Shown here in pieces: positions 1,011 through 64,000 of a stretch of DNA of 64,000 nucleotides. The DNA comes from Tachypleus tridentatus. Lineage: Eukaryota; Arthropoda; Merostomata; Xiphosura; Limulidae. The translations under genes and the position numbers were made by a program. Position 1 is the stretch's first letter; the number at the start of each line of letters is the position of its first letter. Location: positions 91,826,170-91,890,169 of the forward strand of contig NC_134834.1 in NCBI RefSeq assembly GCF_004210375.1. The letters are read 5' to 3'. The notes beneath the pieces are model-generated. The model did not search any database. It was not told the DNA's origin and saw nothing but the letters and a program-made list of their open reading frames with translations.

Positions 1011-4000
1011 TTGTCGTTACATCAGCGGCTCAATGGAGCTATAGTGGCAAAACAGGTAAGCTTCATTTGTTTCTTCTGTTATTTTGCTATGAAATACTTT
1101 ACTGTTAAAGATTTAAACAAAAACATCATTTTATATGTGTTTCTTTTTCATTGTTTAATTACTTTCACTGATAGAGTTGTAAACTTTTATAGTTATGACA
1201 GTCTTTCTCATAGAACTGAAGTTGTTTTGAAAATCAAATGAATTTATTTAATGTAATGATGTACTATGATATTCGTTATAGTAGTATTGGGTATATTAGC
1301 CCTGACATAACAATTGTTAGATTCGGCTACGCTAAATGACTCATAGCAAAACATATTCTAAAACAAATTTATCAGTTTGATCGAAAATACCATATTGCCA
1401 TGGTTGCTGTGATGCCAACATATTCAAATAATTAATCCGAGTTATTCTTTTAAAAACTAGATCTGTCATACAAGGACATTATAATATATCTATGTTTCCA
1501 ATCTAACATTATTAAATAGGCTGATTTCATAAAAAAATTGTTTATCGATATTATTTTTAAAGAATGAGATAATAAAACTGTGAAGTGGATGAAAGGTGTA
1601 AAATAACAAACATCCATATTTTCACTAAAAGTCTCTCATGATACCAGGTTACTTTCATATCAATTGATTCAAGTATTTATTACTAAACTTTCGGCCTTTT
1701 TATTACATATTAATTATTAAAGGTTTGTAAGTATGCTGAGTTTTCTCAATTTGGAATACCTTCGACATACAAACAATTGAAAATCCTCTTTAATTGCCAT
1801 CACATGGCATTTTTAACTAACTCGTATTTTCTTCTATTGATAAAAATAATCTACTCAAGGATATAATCTCTTTTCACCTTCTGCAGGCCCGTCTAAATGG
1901 CCACAGCTATTTCCTCAATGTGGTAAAGGTACTCAGTCACCTATTGATCTAACTGAGAAACACCTGGTAGTGAACGACCTCAATTTCGTGGGTTATGATG
2001 TAAAGTTGCATTCCATGGCTTTTAAAAACGATGGTAAAACTGGTATGTAACGTTAATTTCTTTAATAAGGAATTATATGTTTTATTGTTTACCTAACTAG
2101 TGTATGGAGACATAAACAAATGACATGGTAGATAACAGAGTTTGCACATTTTGTTCCATTTAGTTTAACTGAGTTGAACTGAAAGCGAAAGTCGTCGACA
2201 GGCGTCGCTCTAGAAATACCTTGTACCTTGTTTGTTTCTTTAATATCTGACAAGGAGACATTGTAGACTTTATCCGATAGCCCTAAAAATGCTTTCCATA
2301 TTTTGTAGAACCTGGGTGAGCTATAAGAGAAACGATCTAAACCCACTATTCAGTCAATTAAGAGTAACTATTAATTATCTGCATATATTTCATTCTTTCA
2401 GTTCAAAATTCTGAACGTTTAGTTCATATAATTCTTGTGAAGTTTTGCTCGAATTTGAAGAATCAAACAAACGGTATGACATATCGTCTGTTTATGTTTT
2501 ACAATACTGAAAAGTCCTAAAATATATAGACACAAACACACATGACAAATTAGTTACAGCATAATTAAATAATAGTTCCTTGGTGCATCAGCGTAAATTA
2601 TACGTACTTGCAAAGCTGAAATGAATGGTTTGATTCCTCGCGGTGGAAAGACGGCAGATAACTTATTGTGTATCTTTATACTAGAGAACTCCAAGTCCAG
2701 TATCTCCAACTAATGCAACCTTATTAAAAGAAGAGTTACATATTAACATTAAATTGTATAGATGTTTATGCACAATGTTGATAGTAGCTGGTGCTCACAG
2801 TTAAACTGGAATATTTCCTTGTTTAGTTGACACCAGATAAGATGCAAAAAACAATTTGACTTAAAGTTGTGTTTTTGAAAGATTGCAAATTACTTGATAC
2901 AATATTTAGCAGGCTCAGCATGGCCGGGCGGTTAAGGCCCTTGAATGGTAATCCGTGGGTTCGAATCCCCATTACACCAAACATGCTCGTAAGGATATTA
3001 TAATATGACGATCAATCCCATTATTCTTTGGTAAAAGAGTAGCCCAAAAGTTGGCTGTGGGTAGTGATGACTAGCTGCTTTTCCTCTAACCTTACACTAC
3101 TAAATTATGGACGGTTAGCACAGATGGCCCTTGTGTATATTTGTGTGAAATTCAAAACAAGCAATACTTAACAACAGTTTTATGTCAAGAATGCATTTTA
3201 GCCCTAAGAAACACATTTGAGACCAACAGATTTATATTTTCAAATTTAATATTTTATAAAACATAAATATCTGAAAAAAATTTTAAAGTGTTTGTTTTTC
3301 TATTTCGTATTTTACTGCTGATATTCAGACTGAATTGCTTGAAATATTTTTTTCCTTGTGAAAATGGAACATTTAATTACTCTGTAGTGTTTCTGATGTA
3401 TTTACCCAGATAATAAAGAGTAAAGAAATGAACAGAAATTACAAAATCACAGTTATATCACTTTTTGTTATACTCAGTTCAAACGACATATTTAACAAAT
3501 ACGTGACTGTTAAAAATGATTTATAATTGAATTTAATACAGTGGATAACTCATGCTCTTATAAATATATTCTTTAGTGAAAGTAACCTTCGACAGCTCTG
3601 GCACTCCAATTTTACAAGACAAGGTGAAGAATGCAGAGTACTTTTTACATAGTTTACACTTTCACTGGGGGAAAGTGAATAATCGTGGATCTGAACACAC
3701 AGTTAAACAGATTGCCTATCCTTTAGAAGTAAGTTTGCTTCAAAACGATACAATGAAACACGCTATAGTATTTGAAAGGTTTTAAATTTATTTTGTTGTA
3801 AAGGTCTACGTTTCAAGCATTTCTAAATATCTCTTTAAAAAATAAATATATTTATTGATATGCCAAATACAAAGTGGAACGTTTTTCGATTTGTTTGCTG
3901 CATATAAAATATTTTATTGATTTAGTTAGTGACTATAAATGGTATTATTGATATAGCTGTTACACATAAAACGATCTATTTATATGGTTTCTATAAATTA

Positions 4001-5104
4001 TTATTTAACTGCTACACTCAAAACATTTTATAAATTTAGCTGTTGTATATAAAACTGCTACAAATAACAGTTGTTAACAACTTCAGAGACAAAGAAGTTG
4101 GAGACCGAGTTGTTTTACTGTTGGTTAATATTATATTACTTTAGAGAACCTTATTACAATAAATGTTGTACAATACACCCATATTTATATCTATTATTGA
4201 TTTATTCTGGCTTGCTTGTAGCTCCATCTAGTTCACTACAATTCCATGTACTCCAACCTCTCGGAAGCTTTAAATTATGAGGATGGCATAGCCGTTGTCG
4301 GTGTGCTTTTTAAGGTATTAGTTATTTTGTAAATTTTGTGTTCAATATTTATAACAAAAATATTTAATTTACAATAAAAATAACTTACTGTTATTTTTCA
4401 AAAGTACAGTAAAACTTACTTAGTTCATAAGTTAAAAGAAATGAATGAAAAACGATGAATAATTTTACATACATTTTTGTACCATAATAAAATATTATAA
4501 CTTCAAAGTTATATCTTATGAACACTTTCTATATTAAAATGTTTCTGAATCATTATAAAAAATATACATGTTTTTCATCAGTTGAACGAATATTCGTGTG
4601 AAGAATTAGATGATATCAGTGATTGCTTGGAATCAGTGGAAAGAGCAGGAACTACTTTCAATATTATTGAACCTGAATTAAAACTATCATATCTACTGCC
4701 TGCAGACACTTCGGTTCACTTCCGTTATGAAGGTTCCCTTACCACTCCTATGTGTAATGCTGCTACCTGGAATGTTTTCGTTGGAAAGACCATCTCCCCT
4801 AAATCAGTATGTATTAATCTGTTACGTATTACTTGTTTAGTGATACTCTAGTTTTTACTTATCTGATTAATGTACACTGACTTGTTTATAGAATGAACTC
4901 AGACAGGTTTATTAAAATACCGTATGTAGATTTACTGTGTATATATTTATATGTGTGTGTGTGTGTGTGTGTACTTCATGTTATTTTTTTTCACAGTTGG
5001 AAGCATTCCGGTTTCTCAAGAACACGAAGGGAAACTTTTTGGGAGACAATTTTAGACCAACCCAAAAAACCCAAACGAAAGAAACAAACATGACCGTTCC
5101 ATAA
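1011..5104 (+). CDS. Alpha-carbonic anhydrase, secreted type (upstream copy, 6 exons, 5' exon missing)
   Basis: Exons by splice sites: 1011-1055, 1887-2042, 3577-3728, 4222-4314, 4582-4806, 4997-5104 (stop TAA). The visible part is about 259 codons, close to a full alpha-CA domain. Family function: zinc-dependent hydration of CO2 to bicarbonate. Seen: WSYSGKTG and QSPIDL at the N-terminus; HFHWG supplies zinc ligands His94 and His96 (CA II numbering); GSEHT supplies Glu106; LHLVHYN supplies Glu117-side context and His119; SLTTP supplies Thr199. Cysteines in FPQCGKG and TTPMCN match the Cys23-Cys203 disulfide of extracellular CAs, so it is probably secreted. The first exon begins in phase 1 with the end of a signal-like segment (VVVTSAA); the ATG exon is not visible and probably lies before the window. 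Odd: the proton-shuttle position 64 is Lys, positions 67 and 92 are Lys and Ser, and two extra cysteines (SCEE, SDCLE) lie in exon 5. All frames are open and all donors/acceptors are GT-AG, so it looks functional. Confidence 0.93.
2610..2690 (+). mobile_element. Degenerate short tRNA-like SINE
   Basis: Box-B-like GGTTTGATTCCTCGCGGTGG followed by CAGATAACTTATTGTGT, the typical short-SINE order. In intron 2 of the upstream CA gene. Confidence 0.5.
2911..3162 (+). mobile_element. SINE family A, diverged
   Basis: Head CAGCATGGCCGGGCGGTTAA, T-arm-like GGGTTCGAATCCCC, and a tail region ending in GTGAAATTCAAAACAA. In intron 2 of the upstream CA gene. The other CA copy has a short similar residue (GCGATGCCGGG) at the same place, so an older insertion later deleted there is possible. 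Confidence 0.85.
4951..4972 (+). repeat. (TG)n microsatellite in CA intron 5
   Basis: TG repeats just before exon 6. The other CA copy has a shorter interrupted TG tract at the same place (18060-18081). Confidence 0.9.
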
Positions 5105-15425: not shown

Positions 15426-18177
15426 TATTTCTTGCATCTGCGGCAAAGTGGATATATAGTGGTGAAACTGGTAAGCCCAAATTACTTCTTCTATTATCTT
15501 TCTAACAAAAATTCTGCCACTATGGACAAAAAGCATTTAATACGAATTTCTTCCTTTATTCATCACTTCGACTCATACATTGGGGATATTCTTATGTTAT
15601 CGAATTCAAATTGTTTCGAAAATAAAAGAAACAAAAACAATCTTATTAATGGTATGATCGTTTTGTAAATATATCTTACATTTTCTACAGGCCCGTCTTT
15701 CTGTTCAGAGCTATTTCCTCAGTGTGATCGAGGTACACAGTCACCTATCGATCTAACTATGCGACACCTCAAATTAGACGGCCTGAAGTTCGTGGATTAT
15801 GATCTAAAGTTGAATTTCATAACTTTGAAAAACATTGGGAAAACTGGTATGTAACATTAATTTTGTTAGGTTATGGGGTTGTTAAGGTAATATAGTTTTC
15901 ATACTTTACCTAACTAGTGTATGAAGACATAATCAAAAGACATGAAACATAACAGCATTTTCTCATTTTGTTCCATTTAGCAGTTTAGCTGTGTCGAACT
16001 GAAGACAAAAGTCTCAAACAAGTGACTCTCTAGAAACGTTTTGTACCTTGTTTGCTTCTTGAATATCTGACACGTTTGTACACTGGTTACAAACGAGATA
16101 CAAGAAAAAGTTTATTTTAGCTATGTTTTTGAATGGCTAGAAATTACCAGATACGATATTTAGTAACAGTGCGATGCCGGGAGTACATGTTAGTCCTAAA
16201 AAACACATTAAAGACCAACATATTTATGTTTTCGACAATTATATTTTATAAATGGGAAATATTTAAATAAATTTTGAAATTTATGTATTTCGTATTTCGT
16301 ATTTTTGTGTTAAGTTAAGATTGAAATGTTTCGTATATTTCTTTCTCTTGTGAAAATTACCTTACAACGCGTAAATATATCGTCTTTCATTGTATTAAAT
16401 TCCAACGATATATTTAACAAATACGTGACTACAGAAACTGCTTTTTATGTAAAATTAATACAATAGATAACTCATGCTCTTATAAATATATGTTTTAGTG
16501 AAAGTGACCTTCGACAGTCCTGATACTCCAATGTTACAGGACGAGGTGGACAATGCAGAGTACGTTTCAGATCGTTTCCACTTTCACTGGGGGAAAGTGG
16601 ATACTCGTGGATCTGAACACACAGTTGAACAGACTGCCTATCCTTTGGAAGTAAGTTTGGTTCAAACTTATATTAAGAAGAATATAGTATTTATAAGGTT
16701 TTTAAAATATTATATAGTTGTAAAGGTTTAAGATTATTTAAAGTATTTCTTAATTCTGCTTTCAAAAATACATATATTTATTGATTTGACTTCTACAAGG
16801 TGAAATTTATTTTCGATTTGTCTGATAGCGATTTGACTACTGGAAATAAAACATTTTATTGATTTAGTGAATATAAAGTGTAGCTACTTCACAAAATATA
16901 TTTATTTACATAGTTTTTACACAGAAACTATCATGTAACTGTTACAGGACAAACATTTTAGCTGCTGTATATAAAACTCTTTGCTACAAAACAACAAGTA
17001 GCGTTAATAACTTCAGAATCAAAGAAGCAAATTAAAGTTAGAGACTGAGTTGTTTAACTGGTAGTTAATATTATAATACTTTATAGAACCTTACATGCTC
17101 ATTCATGTGCCAATAAATGTAGTACAATACATCCATATTTATATGTAATATTGGTTTATTCTGGCTCGCATATAGCTCCATCTAGTTCACTACAATTCCA
17201 AGTATTGCCATTTAAAGGAAGCTTTAGCTCATGAGGATGGCATAGCCGTTGTCAGAATGCTTTTTAAGGTATTACTTATCTAATGTTGTATTTAATATTA
17301 AAAATAAATGTATTTATTTTACAATAAAAGTAACCCACTATTATATTTTAAAAGTATAGTAAAACCTACTTTGCTCACAACTTAAAGAAATGAATGAAAA
17401 AAATAGACAATTATGTTTTATGCATTTCTGATAATAATCAGAAAAGAGATATAACAATGAAAGTAATTGTATCTCAGAACGGCTGGTATGGGTATTAACA
17501 CTTTTATTGATGGGGGAAAAAACAACGTTTCGACCTTCCTAGGTCATCTTCAGGTTGAGAATGAAAGTTATTATTTTATTTTAAAATTTTACTTAAAAAT
17601 ATGAGGACTTTCTGTATAAAAATGTCTCCAAACAATTGGAAAAAAAATACACGTTGTTTGTTCTTATTAGTTGAACGAAGATTCGGCTCACAACTTAGAT
17701 GATGTCACTGATGCCTTGGAATCAGTGGAAAATAAAGGAGATACGTACACTGTCAATGATCTTGACGTAAAGCTGTCAGATCTACTGCCTTCAGACACTT
17801 CAGTCTACTTCCGTTATGAAGGCTCCCTCACTACTCCTATGTGCAATGCTGCTACCTGGAATGTTTACGTTGGAAAGACCATCTCACCAAGTCAGGTAAA
17901 TATATAGTAAACTATCCTGAATCAGTATGTACTTATCTGTTACGTATTACTTGTTTAGTGATACTCTGGTTTTTACTTATCTGATAAATGTACACTGAGT
18001 TGTTTGTAGCAAGAGCTCAGAAAAGTTTATTAGAATAACGTATGTAAGTTTACTGTGTATATATGTGTGTATGTGTGTGCTTCTTGTTATTTTTCTTCAC
18101 AGTTGGAAGATTTCCGGTCTCTGAAGGACGGCGATGACAACTACTTGGTGGACAACTTTAGACCAATTCAACTCTGA
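15426..18177 (+). CDS. Alpha-carbonic anhydrase, secreted type (downstream copy, 6 exons, 5' exon not found)
   Basis: Exons: 15426-15470, 15691-15846, 16499-16650, 17176-17268, 17671-17895, 18103-18177 (stop TGA); 248 codons visible. Exon lengths and phases equal those of the upstream copy, except that the last exon is 11 codons shorter and ends in the usual NFRPIQL. Catalytic set intact: HFHWG, GSEHT, LHLVHYN, SLTTP. The two extracellular-type cysteines (FPQC, TTPMC) are kept. Exon 5 matches the other copy at 51 of 75 residues. Odd: position 64 is Lys, 62 is Ile, 67 Lys, 92 Arg; the conserved Trp of GPxxW is replaced by Cys (GPSFCSEL) and another Cys appears in exon 4 (KYCHL), so a second disulfide unique to this copy is possible. 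The N-terminal VFLASAAKW looks like the end of a signal peptide whose ATG exon I could not place. Confidence 0.93.
17476..17572 (-). mobile_element. PLE tail fragment in CA intron 4
   Basis: Minus-orientation tail: GGCTGGTATGGGTATTAACA, then the complement of the hammerhead-like core. The other CA copy lacks it in the same intron. Confidence 0.85.
17518..17560 (-). ncRNA. Hammerhead-like core in PLE tail
   Basis: On the minus strand: CTGAAGA (17547-17553), an extra T, helix II GACC/GGTC, then GAAACGTT. The core matches consensus, but helix I is reduced to about 3 bp. Confidence 0.4.
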
Positions 18178-18231: not shown

Positions 18232-19151
18232 GGTTTATATCTGTTGAAGACAAGCTAGTCATTGTCTCTGAATAGTTTATATCTGTTGAAGACAAGCTAG
18301 TCATTGTCCCTGAATAGTTTATATCTGTTGACGACAAGCTAGTTATTTTCCCTGAATAGCTTATATCTGTTGAAGACAAGCTAGTCATTGTTCCTCAGTA
18401 GTTTATATCTGTTGAAGACAAGCTAGTTATTTTCCCTGAATAGCTTATATCTGTTGAAGACAAGCTAGTTATTTTCCCTGAATAGCTTATATCTGTTGAA
18501 GACAAGCTAGTCATTGTTCCTGAGTAGTTTATATCTGTTGAAGACAAGCTAGTCATTGTTCCTGAGTAGTTTATATCTGTTGAAGACAAGCTAGTTATTT
18601 TCCTTGAATAGCTTATATCTGTTGAAGACAAGCTAGTCATTGTTCCTGAGTAGTTTATATCTGTTGAAGACAAGCTAGTCATTGTCCCTGAGTAGTTTGT
18701 ATCTGTTGAAGACAAGCTAGTCATTGTCCCTGAATAGTTTATATCTGTTGACGACAAGCTAGTCATTGTCCCTGAATAGTTTATATATGTTGAAGACAAG
18801 CTAGTCATTGTCTCTGAATAGTTTATATCTGTTGAAGACAAGCTAGTCATTGTCCCTGAGTAGTTTATATCTGTTGAAGACAAGCTAGTTATTTTCCCTG
18901 AATAACTTATATCTGTTGAAGACAAGCTAGTCATTGTTCCTGAGTAGTTTATATCTGTTGAAGACAAGCTAGTTATTTTCCCTGAATAGCTTATATCTGT
19001 TGAAGACAAGCTAGTCATTGTTCCTGAGTAGTTTATATCTGTTGAAGACAAGCTAGTTATTTTCCCTGAATAGCTTATATCTGTTGAAGACAAGCTAGTC
19101 ATTGTTCCTGAGTAGTTTATATCTGTTGAAGACAAGCTAGTCATTGTCCCT
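18232..19151. repeat. 42-bp minisatellite, 22 units, derived from CA 3' flank
   Basis: Unit TTTATATCTGTTGAAGACAA plus GCTAGTCATTGTCCCTGAGTAG. A single diverged unit (GTGTCTATTGAAGACAAGCT) sits in the same place beside the upstream CA gene near 5112. Units alternate between TCATTGTTCC and TTATTTTCCC types. The period is 14 codons, which produces a spurious 249-codon minus-strand frame. Confidence 0.97.
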
Positions 19152-23624: not shown

Positions 23625-23922
23625 ATGTAGAACCATTTGTTTGTTTGTTTGTTTGGAATTTCGCACAAAGCTACTCGAGGGCTATCTGCGCTAGCCGTCT
23701 CTAATTTAGCAGTGTAAGACTACAGGGAAGGCAGCTAGTCATCACCACCCACCGCCAAGTCTTGGGCTTTTACCAAAAATAGTGGGATTGACCGTCACAT
23801 TATAACGCTCCCACGGCTGAAAGGGCGAGCATGTTTGGTGCAACCGGGATTCGAACCCGCGACCCTCGGATTACGAGTCGAACGCCTTAACACGCTTGGC
23901 CATGCCGGGCCATGTAGAACCA
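23625..23922 (-). mobile_element. SINE family A with 11-bp TSD
   Basis: Body 23636-23911; TSD ATGTAGAACCA at 23625-23635 and 23912-23922. Near full length. Confidence 0.95.
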
Positions 23923-29885: not shown

Positions 29886-31661
29886 AATTAGGACATTCGA
29901 CTCGCCTCTTTAATCGTGGGCCGCTATTAAGTAACCGTTAAATCCACTTTGCATTGATAAACGAGTAGTCCAAAAGTTGGCCGCGGCTAGTGTTGACCAC
30001 CTGCAACCCCTCTAGTTCATCACTTCTAAATGAGGAACGGCTAGCGCAGGTAGCTGCAACCCCTCTAGTCCATCACTTTTAAGTGAAGAACGCGCAGGTA
30101 GCTGCAACCCCTCTTGTCCATCACTTTTAAGTGAAGGACGCGCAGGTAGCTGCAACCCCTCTAGTCCATCACTTCTAAATGAAGAACGCGCAGGTAGCTG
30201 CAACCCCACTAGTTTATCACTTCTAAGTGAAGAACGCGCAGGTAGCTGTAACCCCTGTAGTCCATCACTTTTAAGTAAAGAACGTGCAGGTAGCTGCAAC
30301 CCCTCTAGTCCATCACTTCTAAATGAAGAACGCGCAGGTAGCTGCAACCCCTCTAGGCCATCACTTCTAAATGAAGAACGCGCAGGTAGCTGCAACCCCT
30401 CTAGGCCATCACTTCTAAATGAAGAACGCGCAGGTAGCTGCAACCCCACTAGTCCATCACTTCTAAGTGAAGAACGTGCAGGTAGCTGCAACCCCTCTAG
30501 TCCATCACTTCTAAATGAAGAACGCGCAGGTAGCTGCAACCCCACTAGTTTATCACTTCTAAGTGAAGAACGCGCAGGTAGCTGTAACCCCTCTAGTCCA
30601 TCACTTTTAAGTGAAGAACGCGCAGGTAGCTGCAACCCCTCTAGTCCATCACTTTTAAGTGAAGAACGCGCAGGTAGCTGCAACCCCTCTAGTCCATCAC
30701 TTCTAAATGAAGAACGCGCAGGTAGCTGCAACCCCACTAGTTTATCACTTTTAAGTGAAGAACGCGCAGGTAGCTGTAACCCCTGTAGTCCATCACTTCT
30801 AAATGAAGAACGCGCAGGTAGCTGCAACCCCTCTAGGCCATCACTTCTAAATGAAGAACGCGCAGGTAGCTGCAACCCCTCTAGGCCATCACTTCTAAAT
30901 GAAGAACGCGCAGGTAGCTGCAACCCCTCTAGTCCATCACTTCTAAATGAAGAACGCGCAGGTAGCTGCAACCCCACTAGTCCATCACTTCTAAATGAAG
31001 AACGCGCAGGTAGCTGCAACCCCTCTAGTCCATCACTTCTAAATGAAGAATGCGCAGGTAGCTGCAACCCCACTAGTCCATCACTTCTAAGTGAAGAACG
31101 CGCAGGTAGCTGCAATCCCTCTAGTCCATCACTTCTAAATGAAGAACGCACAGGTAGCTGTAACCCCTGTAGTCCATCACTTTTAAGTAAAGAACGTGCA
31201 GGTAGCTGCAACCCCTCTAGTCCATCACTTCTAAATGAAGAACGCGCAGGTAGCTGCAACCCCACTAGTCCATCACTTTTAAGTGAAGAACGCGTAGGTA
31301 GCTGCAACCCCACTAGTCCATCACTTCTAAATGAAGAATGCGCAGGTAGCTGCAACCCCTCTAGTCCATCACTTCTAAATGAAGAATGCGCAGGTAGCTG
31401 CAACCCCTCTAGTCCATCACTTCTAAATGAAGAACGCGCAGGTAGCTGCAACCCCTCTAGTCCATCACTTCTAAATGAAGAACGCGCAGGTAGCTGCAAC
31501 CCCTCTAGTCCATCACTTCTAAGTGAAAAACGCACAGGTAGCTGCAACCCCTCTAGTCCATCACTTCTAAGTGAAAAACGCACAGGTAGTTGCAACCCCA
31601 CTAGTCCATCACTTTTAAGTGAAGAATGAGCAGGTAGCCCTTGAGTAGCTGAGCGCGAAAT
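29886..31661 (+). mobile_element. SINE family A expanded from within by a 48-bp array
   Basis: The 5' part (CATTCGACTCG, AACGAGTAGTCCAAAAGTTG, GCCGCGGCTAG) and the 3' end (CAGGTAGCCCTTGAGTAGCT, GAGCGCGAAATTAATT) belong to one family A element with a deleted T-arm region. The array at 30001-31630 sits between them at the correct internal place. Confidence 0.85.
30001..31630. repeat. 48-bp minisatellite, about 33 units, SINE-derived
   Basis: The first unit (30001-30053) is 53 bp and aligns base for base in length with the SINE segment from CTGCCTTCCCTCTAG to GCGCAGATAG. All later units lack five bases (GGCTAGCGCAG became CGCAG) and are 48 bp. Common unit: CTGCAACCCCTCTAGTCCAT plus CACTTCTAAATGAAGAACGC and GCAGGTAG. 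The 529-codon minus frame is a by-product of the 16-codon period. Confidence 0.97.
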
Positions 31662-35440: not shown

Positions 35441-35890
35441 TGTGTCACCTTCACACGTTTTCGAACACTGCAAATCAAATAAACACAACATAACCATACA
35501 AAACACCCAAATACTAAATAAAAAAAACAAACATAAACAAATAAACAAGAAGCCTTACTTGTACAACAACTCAAGCTCAAAATAAATCAATATAAAGGAA
35601 CGCCTTTATACCTATATTAATATAATAAATAAATAAAATTATATATTCAAACATCTAATACCGCCCTCTACATTTCGACACTCAGTTACACAACCCCTTT
35701 TAAACATGTGGTCAGCTATCGGTCAGTTACCTCTTTCTTTTTTTTGTGAACCTGACGATGACCGAAGAAGATTGAAACGTTGTTTGCTCCTCTATTAGTG
35801 CTTTCTCTATCCATACCAGCCGTTTTTCCATATATATTTTTCTCTACAAGTGGGTTTTTTCGTTATCACGGATTATAATTTTGCGTTTGT
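35441..35890 (+). mobile_element. PLE 3' fragment, + orientation
   Basis: Begins in the endonuclease coding end (CACCTTCACACGTTTTCGAA), runs through TATAAAGGAACGCCTTTATA and the uninterrupted CCGCCCTCTACATTTCGACA (the empty site for the SINE at 12.36 kb), to the tail CTCTACAAGTGGG. Confidence 0.92.
35746..35787 (+). ncRNA. Hammerhead-like motif in PLE tail
   Basis: GTGAAC, CTGACGA, extra T, GACC-GAAGAA-GATT, GAAACGTT, GTTTGC. Helix I can still form with G-U pairs; helix II is damaged relative to the copy at 12.7 kb. Confidence 0.4.
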
Positions 35891-36545
35891 TTATGTTTGT
35901 TTCTTTATTTATTATTTTAGTGTTTTTTATGGTTACATTGTGTTTATTTGATTTGTAGTGTTCGAAAACGTGGGAAAATGACTTTTTGTGTTCTTTGAAT
36001 CTGGTTTCCATTTTTCTACTTGTTTCTCCAATATAGAAGTCGTGGCAGTTATCACATTGTATTTTATAAATAATGTTGGTGTGGTGTTTTTCAGTGTAGT
36101 TTTTACATAGTATAGACCTTAGGGTTATGCCTGGTTTTTGAATAAATTTGGTATTAACTGGAATGTCATAATTTGTTACTAGTTTTTGCCAAATGTTGGT
36201 TATTTTTCTGCTGATGTCATGGGGTATATTTACTTTTGTTAGTTGATTTTGCTTTCTGTCTAGGTGTGTGCGTATAACGTTTTCTACGATTTATGAAGGA
36301 AACTTGTTGATGTTGATGAAGTATTGGTTTATTTTGTCTAATTTGTCGTTAATTTTATCTGGTGAGCATAGTTTTATGACTGTGTTTATTCGGTTTCTTA
36401 ATATTGTTGAGCTTTTGTTTTGTTTCATGTGCAGGGGTTCGATTCCCCTCGGTGGGCTTAGCAGATAGCCCGATGTGGCTTTGCTGTAAGAAAACACATC
36501 TTGTTTCATGTGCCGAGTCCCATATCAGCCGTTTTTATGTATATA
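35891..36545 (-). pseudogene. PLE ORF fragment, minus orientation, tail-to-tail with the previous piece
   Basis: On the minus strand, from high to low coordinates: INTVIKLCSPDKINDKLDKI, QYFININKFP; then ITNIWQKLVTN; then IIYKIQCDNCHDFYIGET and METRFKEHKKS, HVFEHYKSNKHN. The GIY-YIG endonuclease motif and CxxC are intact, unlike the copy at 12 kb. The fragment stops inside the ORF at the junction near 35891. Frameshifts near 36410 and a stop in the linker show that it is dead. Confidence 0.88.
36420..36513 (+). mobile_element. 5'-truncated SINE family B inserted in PLE, 13-bp TSD
   Basis: Body 36433-36500, from AGGGGTTCGATTCCCCTCGG to AAGAAAACACATC. TSD TTGTTTCATGTGC at 36420-36432 and 36501-36513, which interrupts the minus-strand PLE ORF. 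Confidence 0.95.
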
Positions 36546-37071
36546 ATATAGGTAGTTTGTTTAATCAAAAATGAATATAAATTATCACGGAAACAATAAA
36601 AACTACGCTTGTAATGATGAAAAAATCATAACTGGGAACAACAACAACAAAACTGGCAGCTATATTGTCCGTGTAACCTAAAAGTTCAAGTTTCATGTTT
36701 ATGAAATAAGGTTTTGAGGCCGGCTTCTCGAGTAGATTTTTAAAATGATTGTGTGCAGTTTCAATCAACTTGCCAACTATACCAACAATTCGCTTGAAGA
36801 AAGTATTTTCTTGGCTAATGGTCAACAGGTGGTGAAACTTTCCTATATTTGGCTCTGAAAAAAAAAAAACCCTAAAAAATTTATTTCTTACGACAAATAA
36901 CTATACCTAAAATAACTTTTACACATTAAGAAACACGTGTATAAAAATGTGGGTAATTGACCTGTCTCTGAATGATATAGTCTACAAAAACATTCCGATA
37001 AACATTTAAATTTCTCTTAACCAGGCCGGTTTTCACTTTAATAAGAACTGCGCTTGCCATGCGCAGACGCG
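36546..37071. other. Upstream of the secreted-protein gene; no other gene seen
   Basis: AT-rich until 37040, then a GC-richer patch (GCGCTTGCCATGCGCAGACG) with NRF1-like ATGCGCA immediately before the TATA box. Confidence 0.4.
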
Positions 37072-37079
37072 TATAAATA
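37072..37079 (+). promoter_or_regulatory. TATA box TATAAATA
   Basis: 67-74 nt before the ATG at 37146, which leaves about 40 nt of 5' UTR if transcription starts ~30 nt downstream. Immediately preceded by ATGCGCAGACGCG. Confidence 0.55.
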
Positions 37080-37145
37080 TAAGATTCCATAGCATCAAAG
37101 TTGTAGTTAAGGGACGAAACTGTATACAACTGAAGCTGATTCATC

Positions 37146-40100
37146 ATGCAGTGGTTGAAGGCAGTAGTAAGTTCATGCTTATATGCTCATGTTATCTCAT
37201 CTGAATACTTTACTGATGTTGTGGGAAGACCTCACCTCACCAAAATTTATAACGTCGTATCAGATACGCATTGAAAATCATGAATTTTATTTAGGAAAAA
37301 GATGGACATGGTACAAGGTATTTCAAAAACTGTCACAGAATGTGTGAAACACATGACCGTTATTCCCAAACTCATCCGTATATTAAACTACTTGCAGCAT
37401 CACCTGTTCTAGACAACATTCGTTTATGTTCACGTCATCTTGTATATTGGCATGAGTTTTATTCCAACCACTAATATCGTACTGATGAAAAATAAAGGAA
37501 AAAGAAATTTGAAATCGAATGCAAGTTTGTTAAAAGCGATCTAAGTATACAGTTAAATCTGTTTTTAAAGCTGATGATTCTCTGTGTGTTTCTGGTGGAA
37601 TTTTTGTTTTTCTAAGACAGTACGTTTTAAAACATAATAACCATAGCTAATAGGTTTTATTTATAATACCCTGTGTTTCGTTAGTAAATATATCTGTAAT
37701 AGATATCACTTCTTTTCAGACATTTATTACGGCCTTATTGATGATAGTTTAACTCATTGTTTTCTATCAATATTTATAGTTTATGCTATATGCTATATTT
37801 GTTCAAAACTAAAGACCTTTGTAAATCTGTAACACTTACAAAACGTTGAGTAAAATGTTCCTTTGAGTATGCCAAGGTTTGTAGATTGCCAAGCTTTACT
37901 AGCATTAAGTTGACATCGTTAGTTAGTTTTAAATCAAAGTCACATTGTACTATCTACTATGGCCGAGCAAGGAAAATCGAACACCTGATTTTAGCGTTGT
38001 AACTGACCGCTGTCCCATCGGGGACAGCTTTTCTCCTCTTCCCTATCAATGCTAGCCGTCCCTAAGTTTGCAGTGTAAGACTAGAGGGAAGGTAGCTAGT
38101 CATCACCACCAACTCGTTTTACCAAAGAATAGTGGGAGTTGGATTGACTGTCCCATTGTAACGCCCCCACGGCTGAAAGGACGAGCATATTTGGTGCGGT
38201 GGGGATTCGAACCCGCGACCCTCATATTACAAGTCGAGTGCCTTAACCACCTTGCCATGGAGAACCTGTCTTCGTTTGAATATGCTTCTAAATATACGAT
38301 ACTGTGAACTAAGTTTAGTGTGTGAACTGGTAATATTTGTTCAGTCATTCTTTTTAGTAATGGTCTGGAAGTTGTTATTTTTAATAATTGATTAAAATGT
38401 CTGTCTTTATGTTTCTTTCCTTTAACTAGATTAAATGATATTATTTCGCATTAGTTCGAAATATATATAAATATTGATGTTCATTGGAAGAAAAGCAGTA
38501 TGTTTAAGATTTTACAGCACTAAAATCCAGGGTTCGAGTCCTTGCGGTAGATAGAGTGCAGATAACTCATTGCCTAACTTTGCACAAAGACAAAACCAGT
38601 AACATATGTCCCTGTTGTTTGTATTTATTATATATGCTTGTTTTTATCATTCGATAATTGTTTCCCATTTTCAAGCTGTTGGTTTTCCTCAATTTTCTTT
38701 CTTTCTCTTGTTCTTTTTTATGCTATGTTTTAATAATACGTACAGAAAGTATCTTATAACAGCTTTTTCTCTGTTTATTCCGACCTTTGACACCATTTTC
38801 ATTCCATTATTCAATAATGGCCTATATTTTTTTTCTAAATGCCTGTTTTTTATTTTTCCGTTAATTAGTTAAAAACGTGTCATTTCAGGTTTTTCGAAAA
38901 ATATGCTGAGGTCCACCGGTAGTTCAGAATATGTGTACGGATTTATAAATCTAAAACCCGAGATTCGTATTCCTGTGGTGGACAGAACGCACGTAACTTA
39001 TTGTGTAGTTTTGCATTAAGAAAACATCAACATAAATCTTTTATTATTTCAATATTTTTACATCCTTCTTGCATTTCTTTGTGTCGTATGTTCGCGTTTT
39101 CAACTTTCACTTCCTATACTAGCCACTGTTTTCACAATCCTGAAAACAACTTTTACGAAATACCAAACTAACAACGTGTAAGGCCTACATTTAATAAACC
39201 ACTTAGTTACGAGTCTAAACCAACTAACAACGTGTAAGGCCTACACTTAATAAACCACTTAGTTACGAGTCTAAACCAAACTTACAACATGTAAAGCCTA
39301 CATTTAATAAACCACTTAGTTACGAGTCTAAACCAAACTAACAACGTGTAAGGCCATTTAATAAACCACTTAGTTACGAGTCTAAACCAACTAACAACGT
39401 GTAAGGCCTACATTTAATAAACCACTTAATTACGAGTCTAAACCAACTAACAATGTAAGGCCTACATTCAATAAACCACTTAGTTACGAGTCTAAACCAA
39501 CTAACAACGTGTAAGGCCTACATTTAATAAACCACTTAGTTACGAGTCTAAACCAAACTAACAATGTAAGGCCTACATTTAATAAACCACTTAGATACGA
39601 GTCTAAACCAACGTATAACAATTTAATATAAGGCCTACATTTAATAAACCACTTAATTACGAGTCTAAACCAAACTAACAATGTAAGGCCTACATTTAAT
39701 AAACTACTTAGTTACGAGTCTAAACCAACTAACAACGTGTAAGGCCTACATTTAATAAACCACTTAGTTACGAGTCTAAACCAAACTAACAATGTAAGGC
39801 CTACATTTAATAAACCACTTAGATACGAGTCTAAACCAACTAACAACGTATTAGGCCTACATTTAATAAACCACTTAGTTACGAGTCTAAACCAACTAAC
39901 ATCGTATAAGCCATACATTTAATAAACCACTTAGTTACGAGTCTAAACCAAACTAGCAACGTGTGAGGCCTACATTTAATCTAGCTAGTCACAGTAACCT
40001 AATCTGAACTTTATCTCAACTGAAATATTTTCTAATATTCTAACTACTTTGTTTATGAACTATTTATCGTTGTTAATTTGTAAAAAAAATATTACTGAGT

Positions 40101-40629
40101 TTTTTAAATAAATATTTAGGCTAAAATCATTTTGTATTGTGTAGTGAAGTCGAAGTGTTATATTTGTCTTTACTTATAAACGCCTAAGTAATATCTCTCG
40201 AATTTGTTTTTACTTTTTCGAAATTACAAAAAACACTCAAATGTTAGTCTTACGTATGGTCTTTACAATGTATTTTCTTCTTTATTTTTGTAGGTATCAA
40301 CGGCGTTACTGCTTATTATCTCTAGTTGTGACCACTTGACCGCAATCAGAGTTTCAATTTCAAACTCTCAACGTCAGGGGGCGGAGCAGCGACTCTACCG
40401 GATCCTACCGAGTATCGAAGACAAGTATCGAACCCAAACCACTTATTTACAGAACACTAACCAGTCAAAAGATCTTCATGCCATGCACTCACAAGTGAAT
40501 ATTCAGTGTTATATTCCTTTTCACAGAGTCCATGAATCACACGTTGAAGATCAAGAAGCAATGATTTTATTACAGCGAATACAGAGAACTTTACCCTATT
40601 TAGGGTCGGTTGTCAACGTTGATATTTAA
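37146..40629 (+). CDS. Predicted small secreted protein, two exons, unknown family
   Basis: Exon 1 37146-37166 (ATG, seven codons) ends at a perfect GTAAGT donor in phase 0. Exon 2 40294-40629 starts after a strong pyrimidine tract and TAG and ends at TAA. The joined protein is 118 residues. It opens with MQWLKAVVSTALLLIISSC, a classic signal peptide with cleavage likely after residue 19 or 24; the hydrophobic core is made only when the two exons are joined, which supports the model. The mature part is ~95 residues, hydrophilic, with one Cys (residue 79), one N-glycosylation sequon (NQS at 63) and a C-terminus ending VVNVDI. No dibasic or amidation sites typical of neuropeptides and no family I recognise. 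The intron (3127 bp) holds SINEs and a 56-bp array. Could be a propeptide, an immune peptide or a lineage-specific secreted protein. Confidence 0.6.
37925..38030 (-). mobile_element. Short tRNA-like SINE, diverged
   Basis: AAATCAAAGTCACATTGTAC, GGAAAATCGAACACCTGATT, TTAGCGTTGTAACTGACCGC; intronic. Confidence 0.75.
38049..38266 (-). mobile_element. SINE family A, partial
   Basis: From GCTAGCCGTCCCTAAGTTTG to CACCTTGCCATGG, with an internal deletion in the GCCAACTCTTGGGCT segment. Intronic. Confidence 0.88.
38490..38600 (+). mobile_element. Short tRNA-like SINE, degenerate
   Basis: TTTTACAGCACTAAAATCCA, GGGTTCGAGTCCTTGCGG, CAGATAACTCATTGCCTAAC, TTTGCACAAAGACAAAAC. Confidence 0.65.
38915..39030 (+). 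mobile_element. Short tRNA-like SINE
   Basis: GTCCACCGGTAGTTCAGAAT, AAAACCCGAGATTCGTATTC, CACGTAACTTATTGTGTAGT, TTTGCATTAAGAAAACATC. Confidence 0.7.
39162..39978. repeat. ~56-bp minisatellite, about 14 units, intronic
   Basis: Unit CTAACAACGTGTAAGGCCTA, CATTTAATAAACCACTTAGT, TACGAGTCTAAACCAA. Units vary between about 50 and 60 bp by small indels (GTGTAAGG versus TGTAAGG). Lies in the intron of the predicted secreted-protein gene. Confidence 0.95.
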
Positions 40630-40807
40630 AGAAGTGATTCTGATGGTAGTTCAGCAATCAGAACAACCTTCTAGTAATGTGGTTCATTTGAACAGTTTTA
40701 TATTGAACGAACAAGTAACAGAAATCGATATGATTGCAATTTATTTTCCAAAAAGTCTTTTATTCACCATTAGCGATATCCGAGTAATTCATAAATCTTT
40801 GAGTATC

Positions 40808-40813
40808 AATAAA
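40808..40813 (+). promoter_or_regulatory. Polyadenylation signal AATAAA
   Basis: 179 nt after the stop codon of the predicted secreted-protein gene, a normal 3' UTR length. Confidence 0.5.
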
Positions 40814-40839
40814 CATGCGTTTAATTAAATAATTTGTAT

Positions 40840-46817: not shown

Positions 46818-47113
46818 AACGATTCACTGGCACGGCATGGCCAGGTGGGCTAAGGTGTACAACTCGTAATCTGAAGATCGCGGGTTCGCTTCCCCGTCAC
46901 ACCAAACATTCACGCCTTTTCAGCTGTAAGGGCGTTATAATGTGACGGTCAATCCCACTATTCGTTGGTAAAAGAGAGCCCAAGAGTTTGCGGTGGGTGA
47001 TGATGACTAGCTGCCTTCCCTCTAGTCTCACACTACTAAATTAGGGACGGCTAGCGCAGATAGCCCTCATGTAGCTTTGCGCGAAATTCAAAAAACAAAC
47101 AAACGATCCACTG
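46818..47113 (+). mobile_element. SINE family A with 12-bp TSD (1 mismatch)
   Basis: Body 46830-47101; TSD AACGATTCACTG / AACGATCCACTG at 46818-46829 and 47102-47113. Confidence 0.93.
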
Positions 47114-49266: not shown

Positions 49267-50916
49267 TTAGACAGGTGAGTGTATTTGGTAGTTCAGCACA
49301 CTCTCTGGTTTGGCCAAGAATGTATCATGCTTTCCACTTTTTAGTTGAAAACAATGTTCTTCACGCTCAGGTTGAAGGTCATGCTTGTTCCCGGTCACAT
49401 TACGCCAACTATGACGAAAAAAAGGAAAACACTTTTTGCTCTCTTCATTAGTTATTTTGCTTTTTTCGAGATATATTGAATTTCTACGTCCAGTCGAATT
49501 AAAGCAACTTCCTGGGACTCGATTTTCGAATCCACAATGTAAGCGATGAATATTTCGTTGACCACACTGACCTTTACTCCAAAAGTTGATCCTTACTCGG
49601 ACATTACTCATTTCCCTGGACATACTGATTTTGTCGTTTACGTTGGAGTAATTGCTATTCTGAAAGCCGACACGTAACAGATTGTACGGACCTGCACTGC
49701 AGAAGTTGGTCCCTTCTCTGATACTGTTTGTCATCCTGGAAACACTGACGTTGTTATTTACGTTGGAGTAGCTGGTATTCTGAAAGTTGACATGTAATCG
49801 GGCCAGTCTAGTCTTCAAACATGGAAAAAATATCTGCAAAAAGGTTCTTCGATATTGCTGACTGAGAAGACAATAAAGAATAAAATTCCCAGCGGAATTA
49901 ATAGCCATCAAGAAGTTAAAGATGTTTCCTAATCCACGAGTCATGGGATTTGGGGGCTGAAACGTGGTGTACACCAGGAGAACAGCTGTGGGCAGCTGGC
50001 AGACCATAAAGGAGACAACTACAGCAATCAGCATAATGGTAATCTTTCTCTCCTGTCGAGAATAATTCCGATTGTTTCGGCGTCTGGTCATCGTTTTCCG
50101 TTGGTCTTTGGAAGCATGTACAGACTTGATCAAGAAAAAGTTGAAGACAGTCAGCATAATAAGTGGTAAGAAGACGAACAAAGATACGCATAACCAGTAA
50201 TATATGTTTCTGTAGAGTATATTCATTCCAAGTTCAGAAAATGTTGGCTGTACTGTAGTTTTGTTCGTAAGGGGGTCAGTGACCTCTGTAACAGTCCATT
50301 CGAAAGGAGTCGGAATAGTCAAACAAGAACATACGAAGGCCACAGTTATAACCACCTTTCTGGCGCGAGACTCGGTGCAGTACACCTTTCCTTTTATTGG
50401 GTGACACACGGCGACATATCTCTCGATTGTAAAGGCTACAGTCAACCACACAGAAGTATTACTACAGGCGTCAGTTAGCAGTATAGTATAGGGCCACAGT
50501 CGCCAGTAATTAACATGGTGGAAATCAGTCATACCAGGGTAATGAGAAATGGACAAGATCAGAATACACATTAAATACAGCATGTCAAAAATGGCCAAGC
50601 CGGTTAAGTAATTATTGGTAGAGGAGCGCATATGTCGACGGGTCATGATCACGATGGTCGAAAGGTTGCCTACGACACCGACAAAAGAAATTATTGGTAC
50701 AAACACTCGTTGAATCCAAAAGCGACTTAAGTTCAGAAATCGTAAGTGTGTGAGCTCAGAACCTATCGTTTCATTTTTTGTTTCGTTTTCTAAGTTAAAT
50801 GCTGTTTCCACAGTCTGCCACAGGTCGCAATATTCTGGTGACATTGAGTGTAGTTTTAGTGTCCACTCTGTAAAGTTACAAATCCAAGTATCGTATGATA
50901 CATCAGATTCGGTCAT
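49267..50916 (-). CDS. Rhodopsin-family peptide GPCR, FMRFamide-receptor-like, intronless
   Basis: 549 residues starting at the ATG at 50916 (AAG before it gives A at -3); the open frame upstream has only a TTG. Family role: plasma-membrane receptor for a neuropeptide, signalling through G proteins. Seen: extracellular N-terminus with sequons NFT, NET, NET, NLS; TM1 about 71-93 with GNLS; TM2 101-124 with LAIFD; TM3 144-168 with Cys151 and ERY at 165-167; TM4 186-205; TM5 239-264 with FVFLP; basic third loop; TM6 293-316 with FMVCQLP; TM7 329-351 ending NFILY in place of NPxxY; Cys366 possible palmitoylation. The TM2-TM3 and TM5-TM7 wording resembles arthropod FMRFamide-type and related orphan receptors; the ligand cannot be named. 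Odd: no Cys in extracellular loop 2 to pair with Cys151, and a ~185-residue tail with an internal duplication. Confidence 0.94.
   Translation of the reverse strand: MTESDVSYDTWICNFTEWTLKLHSMSPEYCDLWQTVETAFNLENETKNETIGSELTHLRFLNLSRFWIQRVFVPIISFVGVVGNLSTIVIMTRRHMRSSTNNYLTGLAIFDMLYLMCILILSISHYPGMTDFHHVNYWRLWPYTILLTDACSNTSVWLTVAFTIERYVAVCHPIKGKVYCTESRARKVVITVAFVCSCLTIPTPFEWTVTEVTDPLTNKTTVQPTFSELGMNILYRNIYYWLCVSLFVFLPLIMLTVFNFFLIKSVHASKDQRKTMTRRRNNRNYSRQERKITIMLIAVVVSFMVCQLPTAVLLVYTTFQPPNPMTRGLGNIFNFLMAINSAGNFILYCLLSQQYRRTFLQIFFPCLKTRLARLHVNFQNTSYSNVNNNVSVSRMTNSIREGTNFCSAGPYNLLRVGFQNSNYSNVNDKISMSREMSNVRVRINFWSKGQCGQRNIHRLHCGFENRVPGSCFNSTGRRNSIYLEKSKITNEESKKCFPFFRHSWRNVTGNKHDLQPEREEHCFQLKSGKHDTFLAKPESVLNYQIHSPV
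49543..49797 (-). repeat. Internal duplication in GPCR cytoplasmic tail
   Basis: Residues ~374-414 and ~415-458 are two diverged copies: NFQNTSYSNVNNNVSVSRMT versus GFQNSNYSNVNDKISMSREM; a third start (CGFEN) follows. The DNA also repeats (TTTACGTTGGAGTA in both). Confidence 0.88.
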
Positions 50917-50971
50917 CTTTGTGATCAAACAAAGAGATTACATAAGTTATTATCAGATAAATAATTCAGGG

Positions 50972-54241: not shown

Positions 54242-54950
54242 GTGGAAATTTTTAAATAAGATAATACAAAATGTTTCAAATAAGATAATACAAAATGTTT
54301 CAAATAAATTAATACAAAATGTTTCAAATAGGATAATACAGAATGTTTCAAATAAGATAATACAAAATGTTTCAAATAAGATAATACAAAATGTTTCAAA
54401 TAAGATAATACAGAATGTTTCAAATATGATAATACAGAATGTTTCAAATAAGATAATACAAAATGTTTCAAATAAATTAATACAAAATGTTTCAAATATG
54501 ATAATACAGAATGTTTCAAATAAGATAATACAAAATGTTTCAAATAAGATAATACAAAATGTTTCAAATAAGATAATACAAAATGTTTCAAATAAGATAA
54601 TACAGAATGTTTCAAATAAGATAATACAGAATGTTTCAAATAAGATAATACGAAATGTTTCAAATAAGATAATACAAAATGTTTCAAATAAGATAATACA
54701 AAATGTTTCAAATAAGATAATACAGAATGTTTCAAATAAGATAATACAAAATGTTTCAAATAAGATAATACGAAATGTTTCAAATAAGATAATACAAAAT
54801 GTTTCAAATAAGATAATACAAAATGTTTCAAATAAGATAATACAAAATGTTTTAAATAAGATAATACGAAATGTTTCAAATAAAATAATACAAATTGTTT
54901 CAAATAAGATAGTACGAAATGTTTCAAATAAAATAATACAAAATGTTTGA
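54242..54950. repeat. 24-bp minisatellite, about 29 units
   Basis: Unit TTTCAAATAAGATAATACAA plus AATG (or GATG/GAATG variants). Highly homogeneous. The eight-codon period opens both strands (236 and 266 codons); both are artefacts. Confidence 0.97.
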
Positions 54951-61884: not shown

Positions 61885-64000
61885 GTGTAAACATGCATAC
61901 GTGTTTGAACTGATTCATCAAAGTTTACACACATGTATACGTGTTTGAACTGATTTCTAACAGCTTACACACATGTATACGTGTTTGAACTGATCCCTCA
62001 CAGTTTACACACATGTATACGTGTTTGAACTGATTTCTAACAGCTTACACACATGCATACGTGTTTGAACTGATTCATCACAGTTTACACACATGTATAC
62101 GTGTTTCAACTGATTCCTCATAGTTTACACAAATGTATACGTGTTTGAACTGATTCATCACAGTTTACACACATGCATACGTGTTTGAACTGATTTCTAA
62201 CAGCTTACATACATGGATACGTGTTTGAACTGATTCATCACAGTTTACACACATGTATACGTGTTTGAACTGATTCATCACAGTTTACACACATGCATAC
62301 GTGTTTGAACTGATTTCTAACAGCTTACACACATGTATACGTGTTTGAACTGATCCCTCACAGTTTACACACATGTATACGTGTTTGAACTGATTCATCA
62401 CAGTTTACACACATGTATACGTGTTTGAACTGATCCCTCACAGTTTACACACATGTATACGTGTTTGAACTGATCCCTCACAGTTTACACACATGTATAC
62501 GTGTTTGAACTGATTCATCACAGTTTACACACATGTATACGTGTTTGAACTGATCCCTCACAGTTTACACGCATGTATACGTGTTTGAACTGATCCCTCA
62601 CAGTTTACACGCATGTATACGTGTTTCAACTGATTCCTCATAGTTTACACACATGTATACGTGTTTGAACTGATCCCTCACAGTTTACACGCATGTATAC
62701 GTGTTTCAACTGATTCCTCATAGTTTACACACATGTATACGTGTTTGAACTGATTCATCACAGTTTACACACATGTATACGTGTTTGAACTTATTCATCA
62801 CAGTTTACACACATGTATACGTGTTTGAACTAATTCATCACAGTTTACACACATGGATACGTGTTTGAACTGATCCCTCACAGTTTACACGCATGTATAC
62901 GTGTTTCAACTGATTCCTCATAGTTTACACACATGTATACGTGTTTGAACTGATTCATCACAGTTTACACACATGTATACGTGTTTGAACTGATTCATCA
63001 CAGTTTACACACATGTATACGTGTTTGAACTAATTCATCACAGTTTACACACATGTATACGTGTTTGAACTGATCCTCACAGTTTACACACATGTATACG
63101 TGTTTCAACTGATTCCTCATAGTTTACACACATGTATACGTGTTTGAACTAATTCATCACAGTTTACACACATGTATACGTGTTTGAACTGATCCCTCAC
63201 AGTTTACACACATGTATACGTGTTTCAACTGATTCCTCATAGTTTACACACATGTATACGTGTTTGAACTGATTCATCACAGTTTACACACATGTATACG
63301 TGTTTGAACTGATTCATCACAGTTTACACACATGTATACGTGTTTGAACTGATTCATCACAGTTTACACACATGTATACGTGTTTGAACTGATTCATCAC
63401 AGTTTACACACATGTATACGTGTTTGAACTAATTCATCACAGTTTACACACATGGATACGTGTTTGAACTGATTTCTAACAGCTTACACAGATGTATACG
63501 TGTTTGAACTGATCCCTCACAGTTTACACACATGTATACGTGTTTGAACTGATTTCTAACAGCTTACACACATGTATACGTGTTTGAACTAATTCATCAC
63601 AGTTTACACACATGTATACGTGTTTCAACTGATTCATCACAGTTTAGACACATGTATACGTGTTTCAACTGATTTCTAACAGCTTACACACATGTATACG
63701 TGTTTCAACTGATCCTCACAGTTTACACGCATGTATACGTGTTTCAACTGATTCCTCATAGTTTACACACATGTATACGTGTTTGAACTGATTCATCACA
63801 GTTTACACACATGTATACGTGTTTGAACTGATTCATCACAGTTTACACACATGTATACGTGTTTGAACTAATTCCTCACAGTTTACACACATGGATACGT
63901 GTTTGAACTGATCCCTCACAGTTTACACGCATGTATACGTGTTTCAACTGATTCCTCATAGTTTACACACATGTATACGTGTTTGAACTGATTCATCGCA
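61885..64000. repeat. 40-bp satellite, about 53 units, continues past the window
   Basis: Unit CAGTTTACACACATGTATAC plus GTGTTTGAACTGATTCATCA. Linked variants recur: TTTCTAACAGCTT, TCCCTCA, and GTTTCAAC with TTCCTCATAG. Single-base deletions near 63075 and 63710 shift the register. The stretch TACACACATGTATACGTGT alternates purine and pyrimidine. Confidence 0.98.

Follow-up and report, generated by a model that had tools for sequence, protein, structure and literature searches.

Organization of the Locus

The window analyzed here is a 64,000-nucleotide stretch of the Tachypleus tridentatus genome (NC_134834.1, positions 91,826,170 to 91,890,169, forward strand), whose features are collected in Table 1. 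The candidate gene is composed of two putative coding exons separated by a single putative intron, with consensus splice sites (donor at 37167 and acceptor immediately before 40294) connecting one frame. When joined in phase 0, the two exons encode a protein of 118 residues. The start ATG carries an A at position -3, and no upstream ATG occurs in 37090-37145. The putative intron contains both a SINE-like repeat copy and a tandem array, while no repeats of the candidate exons or their near flanks were detected elsewhere in the 64-kb window. All elements named in the preliminary description of this locus (the ATG, seven codons, GTAAGT, acceptor, 111 codons, AATAAA and TATA box) are present at their coordinates, although the AATAAA hexamer lies outside the span of 37146-40629 that had been assigned to the gene. 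With 29 copies of the 8-mer TATAAATA in the window (16 on the plus strand and 13 on the minus strand), the TATA box is weak evidence when taken alone.

Table 1. Coordinates of the candidate gene and of other features in the 64-kb window
Feature	Position	Strand	Remarks
TATA-box-like TATAAATA	37072-37079	+	74 nt 5' of the ATG; GC locally higher
Putative coding exon 1	37146-37166	+	MQWLKAV, 7 codons; ATG at 37146
Putative intron	37167-40293	+	GTAAGT...TTTGTAG, 3127 nt, GT..AG
SINE-like repeat copy in putative intron	38043-38262		
Tandem array in putative intron	39166-39980		
Putative coding exon 2	40294-40629	+	111 codons plus TAA (40627-40629)
AATAAA polyadenylation-signal-like hexamer	40808-40813	+	179 nt past the stop
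Carbonic anhydrase exon (Pfam)	4549-4851		upstream of the candidate
Carbonic anhydrase exon (Pfam)	16486-16731		upstream of the candidate
Carbonic anhydrase stretch	3194-5060		
Carbonic anhydrase stretch	16186-18166		
Receptor-like frame	49267-50937	-	556 codons, stop to stop; downstream of the candidate
Frame with GIY-YIG-like C-terminal part	35844-36290	-	
111-codon frame	36565-36900	-	strong acceptor-like site at 36854
SINE copy	46828-47107		one of 15 long copies
tRNA model match	23840-23905		within one SINE copy
Minisatellite array, 42-nt unit	18233-19151		
Minisatellite array, 48-nt unit	30001-31638		open in a frame on both strands
Minisatellite array, 24-nt unit	54246-54948		open in a frame on both strands
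Minisatellite array, 40-nt unit	61891-63994		

The surroundings of the candidate contain both genes and repeats. The two carbonic anhydrase stretches share ~77% identity in three blocks whose order is kept, and they represent a tandem duplication. The uninterrupted frame downstream of the candidate resembles rhodopsin-family (7tm_1/Srw) receptors and finds its best PDB matches among peptide-hormone receptors; it may be FMRFamide-receptor-like. Reverse-transcriptase fragments are found near the candidate, and a dispersed SINE of ~270 nt with a tRNA-like head is represented by 15 long copies on both strands. The frame with a GIY-YIG-like C-terminal part, which is presumably Penelope-like, lies in a region with similar copies in the window, and Pfam provided no support for it. 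The 111-codon frame on the minus strand, with a codon-position chi-square of 20.2 and no Pfam match, surpasses exon 2 as a coding candidate when judged by periodicity.

Splice Sites and the Choice of the First Exon

Splice-site strength was assessed with simple, home-made donor and acceptor matrices. The donor at 37167 scores 5.3, and 466 of the 8149 GTs on the two strands, counting this donor, do at least as well (225/3902 on the plus strand and 241/4247 on the minus strand). Its earlier characterization as a perfect GTAAGT donor applies to the intron side, whereas the exon side (GTA) is nonconsensus and the score is ordinary. The acceptor before 40294, previously described as strong, deserves this designation: its score of 14.1 ranks second among 7046 AGs by the simple matrix and is reached by two of them, itself included (2/3467 on the plus strand and 0/3579 on the minus strand). 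It constitutes the strongest evidence for the candidate gene. The frame that follows this acceptor, at 111 codons, is longer than those behind the other 19 acceptors with scores of 10.5 or more (runner-up, 95 codons). Of the 220 other acceptors with scores of 7 or higher, 6 lead into a frame of 100 codons or more, 10 into a hydrophobic start, and none into both.

The joined N terminus, with a predicted n-region MQWLK (one lysine) and hydrophobic core AVVSTALLLIIS, passes a crude, home-made signal-peptide test based on the mean hydrophobicity of the h-region (2.77 here) and the -3/-1 rule. With donors scoring at least 4.5, three exon-1 candidates within 5 kb fit the frame, two of which (donors 36079 and 37167) yield a signal-like start; within 20 kb, 29 of 32 candidates pass the crude test, the majority being repeated copies from two tandem arrays. 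As most of the hydrophobic run is encoded by exon 2, other upstream exons also produce such a start, which therefore tests exon 2, and exon 1 only to a small degree. It had been proposed that a signal peptide arises from the spliced product alone and that this independently checks the join. The former holds insofar as the exon 2 frame offers no ATG ahead of the hydrophobic run, but alternative exons pass as well; the latter is valid for the role of exon 2 as a coding exon at the 5' end and applies weakly to exon 1. Exon 2 is better supported than exon 1, the choice of which is not unique.

These observations bear on an alternative that we consider unlikely, namely that exon 2 is real but belongs to a different gene model, either with another first exon (a noncoding leader or one with another ATG) or with an exit through a donor such as 40605 to unrecognized exons. 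Such a model is favored by the signal-like start obtained from donor 36079, by the score of the donor-like site at 40605 (5.8, higher than that of the exon-1 donor) and by a 74-codon frame (40604-40825) overlapping the end of exon 2. However, the exon-1 candidates within 5 kb number only three, and among them a TATA box at a normal distance (74 nt 5' of the ATG) is unique to 37167. In addition, from the 42 plus-strand ORFs listed between 37 and 49 kb (after removal of those with fewer than 38 codons or with at least 30% overlap with listed repeats), 10 besides the candidate were searched against Pfam, and none gave a match above cut-off; none of those ten was therefore recognizable as a further exon of a larger gene.

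Chance Expectation for the Combination

The combination of an acceptor, a frame of 100 codons or more, an ATG exon of at most 60 nt within 5 kb, a donor scoring at least 5.3 and a positive crude signal-peptide test was scanned in the real window and in 1522 simulated windows generated by a third-order Markov model, with tandem arrays excluded from training and the scan leaving out acceptors within 6000 nt of the start or 400 nt of the end of either strand. With thresholds chosen post hoc, after the candidate was known, and a home-made signal-peptide rule, the simulated mean per window was 0.10, 0.014 and 0 with the minimum acceptor score set at 7, 10 and 14, respectively; the significance is overstated, perhaps several-fold, because the simulation has fewer strong acceptors than the real window (real versus simulated, 33 vs 24.4 at scores of at least 10, 7 vs 2.9 at 12 or more, and 2 vs 0.2 at 14 or more). 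On both strands of the real window, the scan recovered the acceptor before 40294, to which either of two first exons could be joined; the most permissive acceptor threshold added one minus-strand site whose peptide is part of the receptor gene. Stop-to-stop frames of at least 100 codons occur about 8 times per simulated 64-kb window on both strands, and ORF length by itself is unremarkable. The two-exon structure beats chance in the simulation.

A chance alignment of splice-like motifs with an open frame, in the absence of any transcript, is accordingly regarded as rather improbable. It is in favor of this explanation that every part but the acceptor is common and that the candidate was picked post hoc from 64 kb, but the complete combination is expected only 0.014 times per window with acceptors of at least 10, and was absent from all 1522 windows with acceptors of at least 14.

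Searches for Relatives and Properties of the Predicted Protein

The best Pfam match of the candidate protein was PF10567 (Nab6_mRNP_bdg; 19.1 bits, E 0.001), a family described as RNA-binding, to which the likeness is limited to 34 aligned residues. With a score (19.6 bits for the mature part) below the cut-off of 30.3 and coverage of 34 of 310 profile positions, this match was taken as chance. The mature part also matched PF08365 at E 0.15. A carboxypeptidase propeptide or SEA-like domain, considered by eye, was set aside; neither was listed by Pfam at E <=10, in a listing whose filters drop most matches above about 0.1. No matches were obtained for the candidate protein in NCBIfam or for exon 2 in PHROGs, and PDB sequences contained no credible relative (best E 0.14, chain m4D2, presumably a designed protein). 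Queries with exon 2 yielded 3 pattern matches in viral contigs and 86 in prokaryote genomes, none of which was confirmed; this silence means little, because neither collection covers the organisms in which an animal gene would be sought. Within this scope, the earlier statement that the protein matches nothing known stands, in that no family exceeded the curated cut-off in Pfam, NCBIfam or PHROGs and no credible relative emerged from the PDB, viral or prokaryotic sets. In the literature, a text search did not find the string MQWLKAV, topic searches gave nothing on the locus among the matches listed, and none of the matches to five repeat strings was on the subject, as judged by title.

The signal would probably be cut after C19 or A24, leaving a mature part of 94-99 residues. 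The predicted mature part is hydrophilic and near-neutral (pI 7.2-8.1), with one cysteine (C79), or two if the cut falls one residue before the end at C19, and one N-glycan sequon (NQS at N63). No dibasic sites are present in the 118 residues, and two RxxR motifs (RLYR and RIQR) were found, a number reached or exceeded in 9% of shuffles. Single-sequence AlphaFold2 modeling of exon 2 alone gave a low-confidence structure of alternating strands and helices (mean pLDDT 51.8, pTM 0.44), for which Foldseek found nothing in the PDB at E <=0.001 (best E 0.34); therefore, no fold is claimed.

Tests for a Coding Signature in Exon 2

Exon 2 has a GC content of 41%, compared with 23% in the 294 nt upstream, and the receptor gene in the window likewise has 41%. 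The GC step of 0.19 at the acceptor is equalled at 1.8% of positions. By codon position, the GC content of exon 2 is 0.50/0.34/0.41. A difference between the first two positions as large as this (0.15) is found in 1.9% of 2504 simulated ORFs and in 3 of 65 further ORFs that span at least 70 codons and are not known to be coding. Three-base periodicity falls short of significance (chi-square 7.4 over codon positions, p 0.28); 23% of the 848 noncoding windows score at least as high, as do 47% of simulated ORFs. Values as low as this occur in 10% of 446 overlapping receptor-gene windows of the same length and in none of 90 windows of one reverse-transcriptase ORF.

When 78 further ORFs with 70 or more codons are compared with exon 2, 23 equal or surpass it on the codon model, 14 do so on amino-acid composition and 50 do so by chi-square per codon. 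Across the six frames over exon 2, the candidate frame ranks first on the codon model and second on composition, where one reverse frame is better. Codon models trained on the window's own exons are poor: with half of the receptor gene as training, held-out receptor pieces score -0.03 and -0.21, and exon 2 scores -0.18. Overall, the coding evidence for exon 2 is mixed.

A spliced noncoding RNA whose second exon is open by chance would agree with a strong acceptor and GC step accompanied by weak periodicity, and with the lack of homologues in Pfam, NCBIfam, PHROGs, PDB, viral and prokaryotic sets, but it is improbable given that frame, phase and hydrophobic start all coincide with the acceptor and that a long frame and a hydrophobic start occur together at 0 of the 220 other acceptors.

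Interpretation and Comparison with Known Secreted Proteins

The sequence signals, the open frame and the crude signal-peptide match are directly observed at this locus. Their best explanation, to which we assign an even chance, is a protein-coding two-exon gene for a small secreted protein that is perhaps lineage-restricted. As a two-exon secreted-protein gene, the initial proposal remains the best single reading and beats the simulation, while periodicity is weak and exon 1 is not unique. Exon 2 is probably a real exon, and whether the gene is exactly as originally drawn is close to an evenly balanced question.

We infer that such a gene would be expressed as follows. Transcription from the TATA promoter would start about 40 nt before the ATG, and the single 3.1-kb intron would be spliced out. 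The 118-residue product would then be directed to the ER by its N-terminal signal, formed by the n-region MQWLK and the h-region AVVSTALLLIIS. Cleavage, probably after C19 or A24, would release a near-neutral, hydrophilic protein of 94 to 99 residues carrying C79 and the sequon at N63. It is a matter of speculation whether this protein forms a disulphide-linked dimer or serves as a precursor that is processed at RLYR/RIQR.

Orphan (taxonomically restricted) small secreted-protein genes are a recognized class in arthropods, with which the candidate shares a signal-like N terminus, a product of ~100 residues, few exons and no recognized domain; it differs in being known here from genomic sequence alone. 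Its signal-like start and small size are also reminiscent of arthropod neuropeptide precursors, but unlike classical precursors it has two RxxR motifs instead of dibasic processing sites. Similarly, it resembles cysteine-rich arthropod venom or antimicrobial peptides in being small and secreted-looking, whereas its mature part has one or two cysteines rather than several pairs. That it is the first member of an undescribed lineage-restricted family, secreted, nearly cysteine-free, of ~95 residues and possibly acting as a signalling or immune factor, is a doubtful proposition at present.

Gene finders easily miss very short first exons, and secreted proteins with split signal peptides may therefore be under-annotated. 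If real, the candidate would add one possibly lineage-restricted secreted protein, with no concept changed. Rather than introducing a new kind of system, the finding matters, modestly, at the level of annotation.
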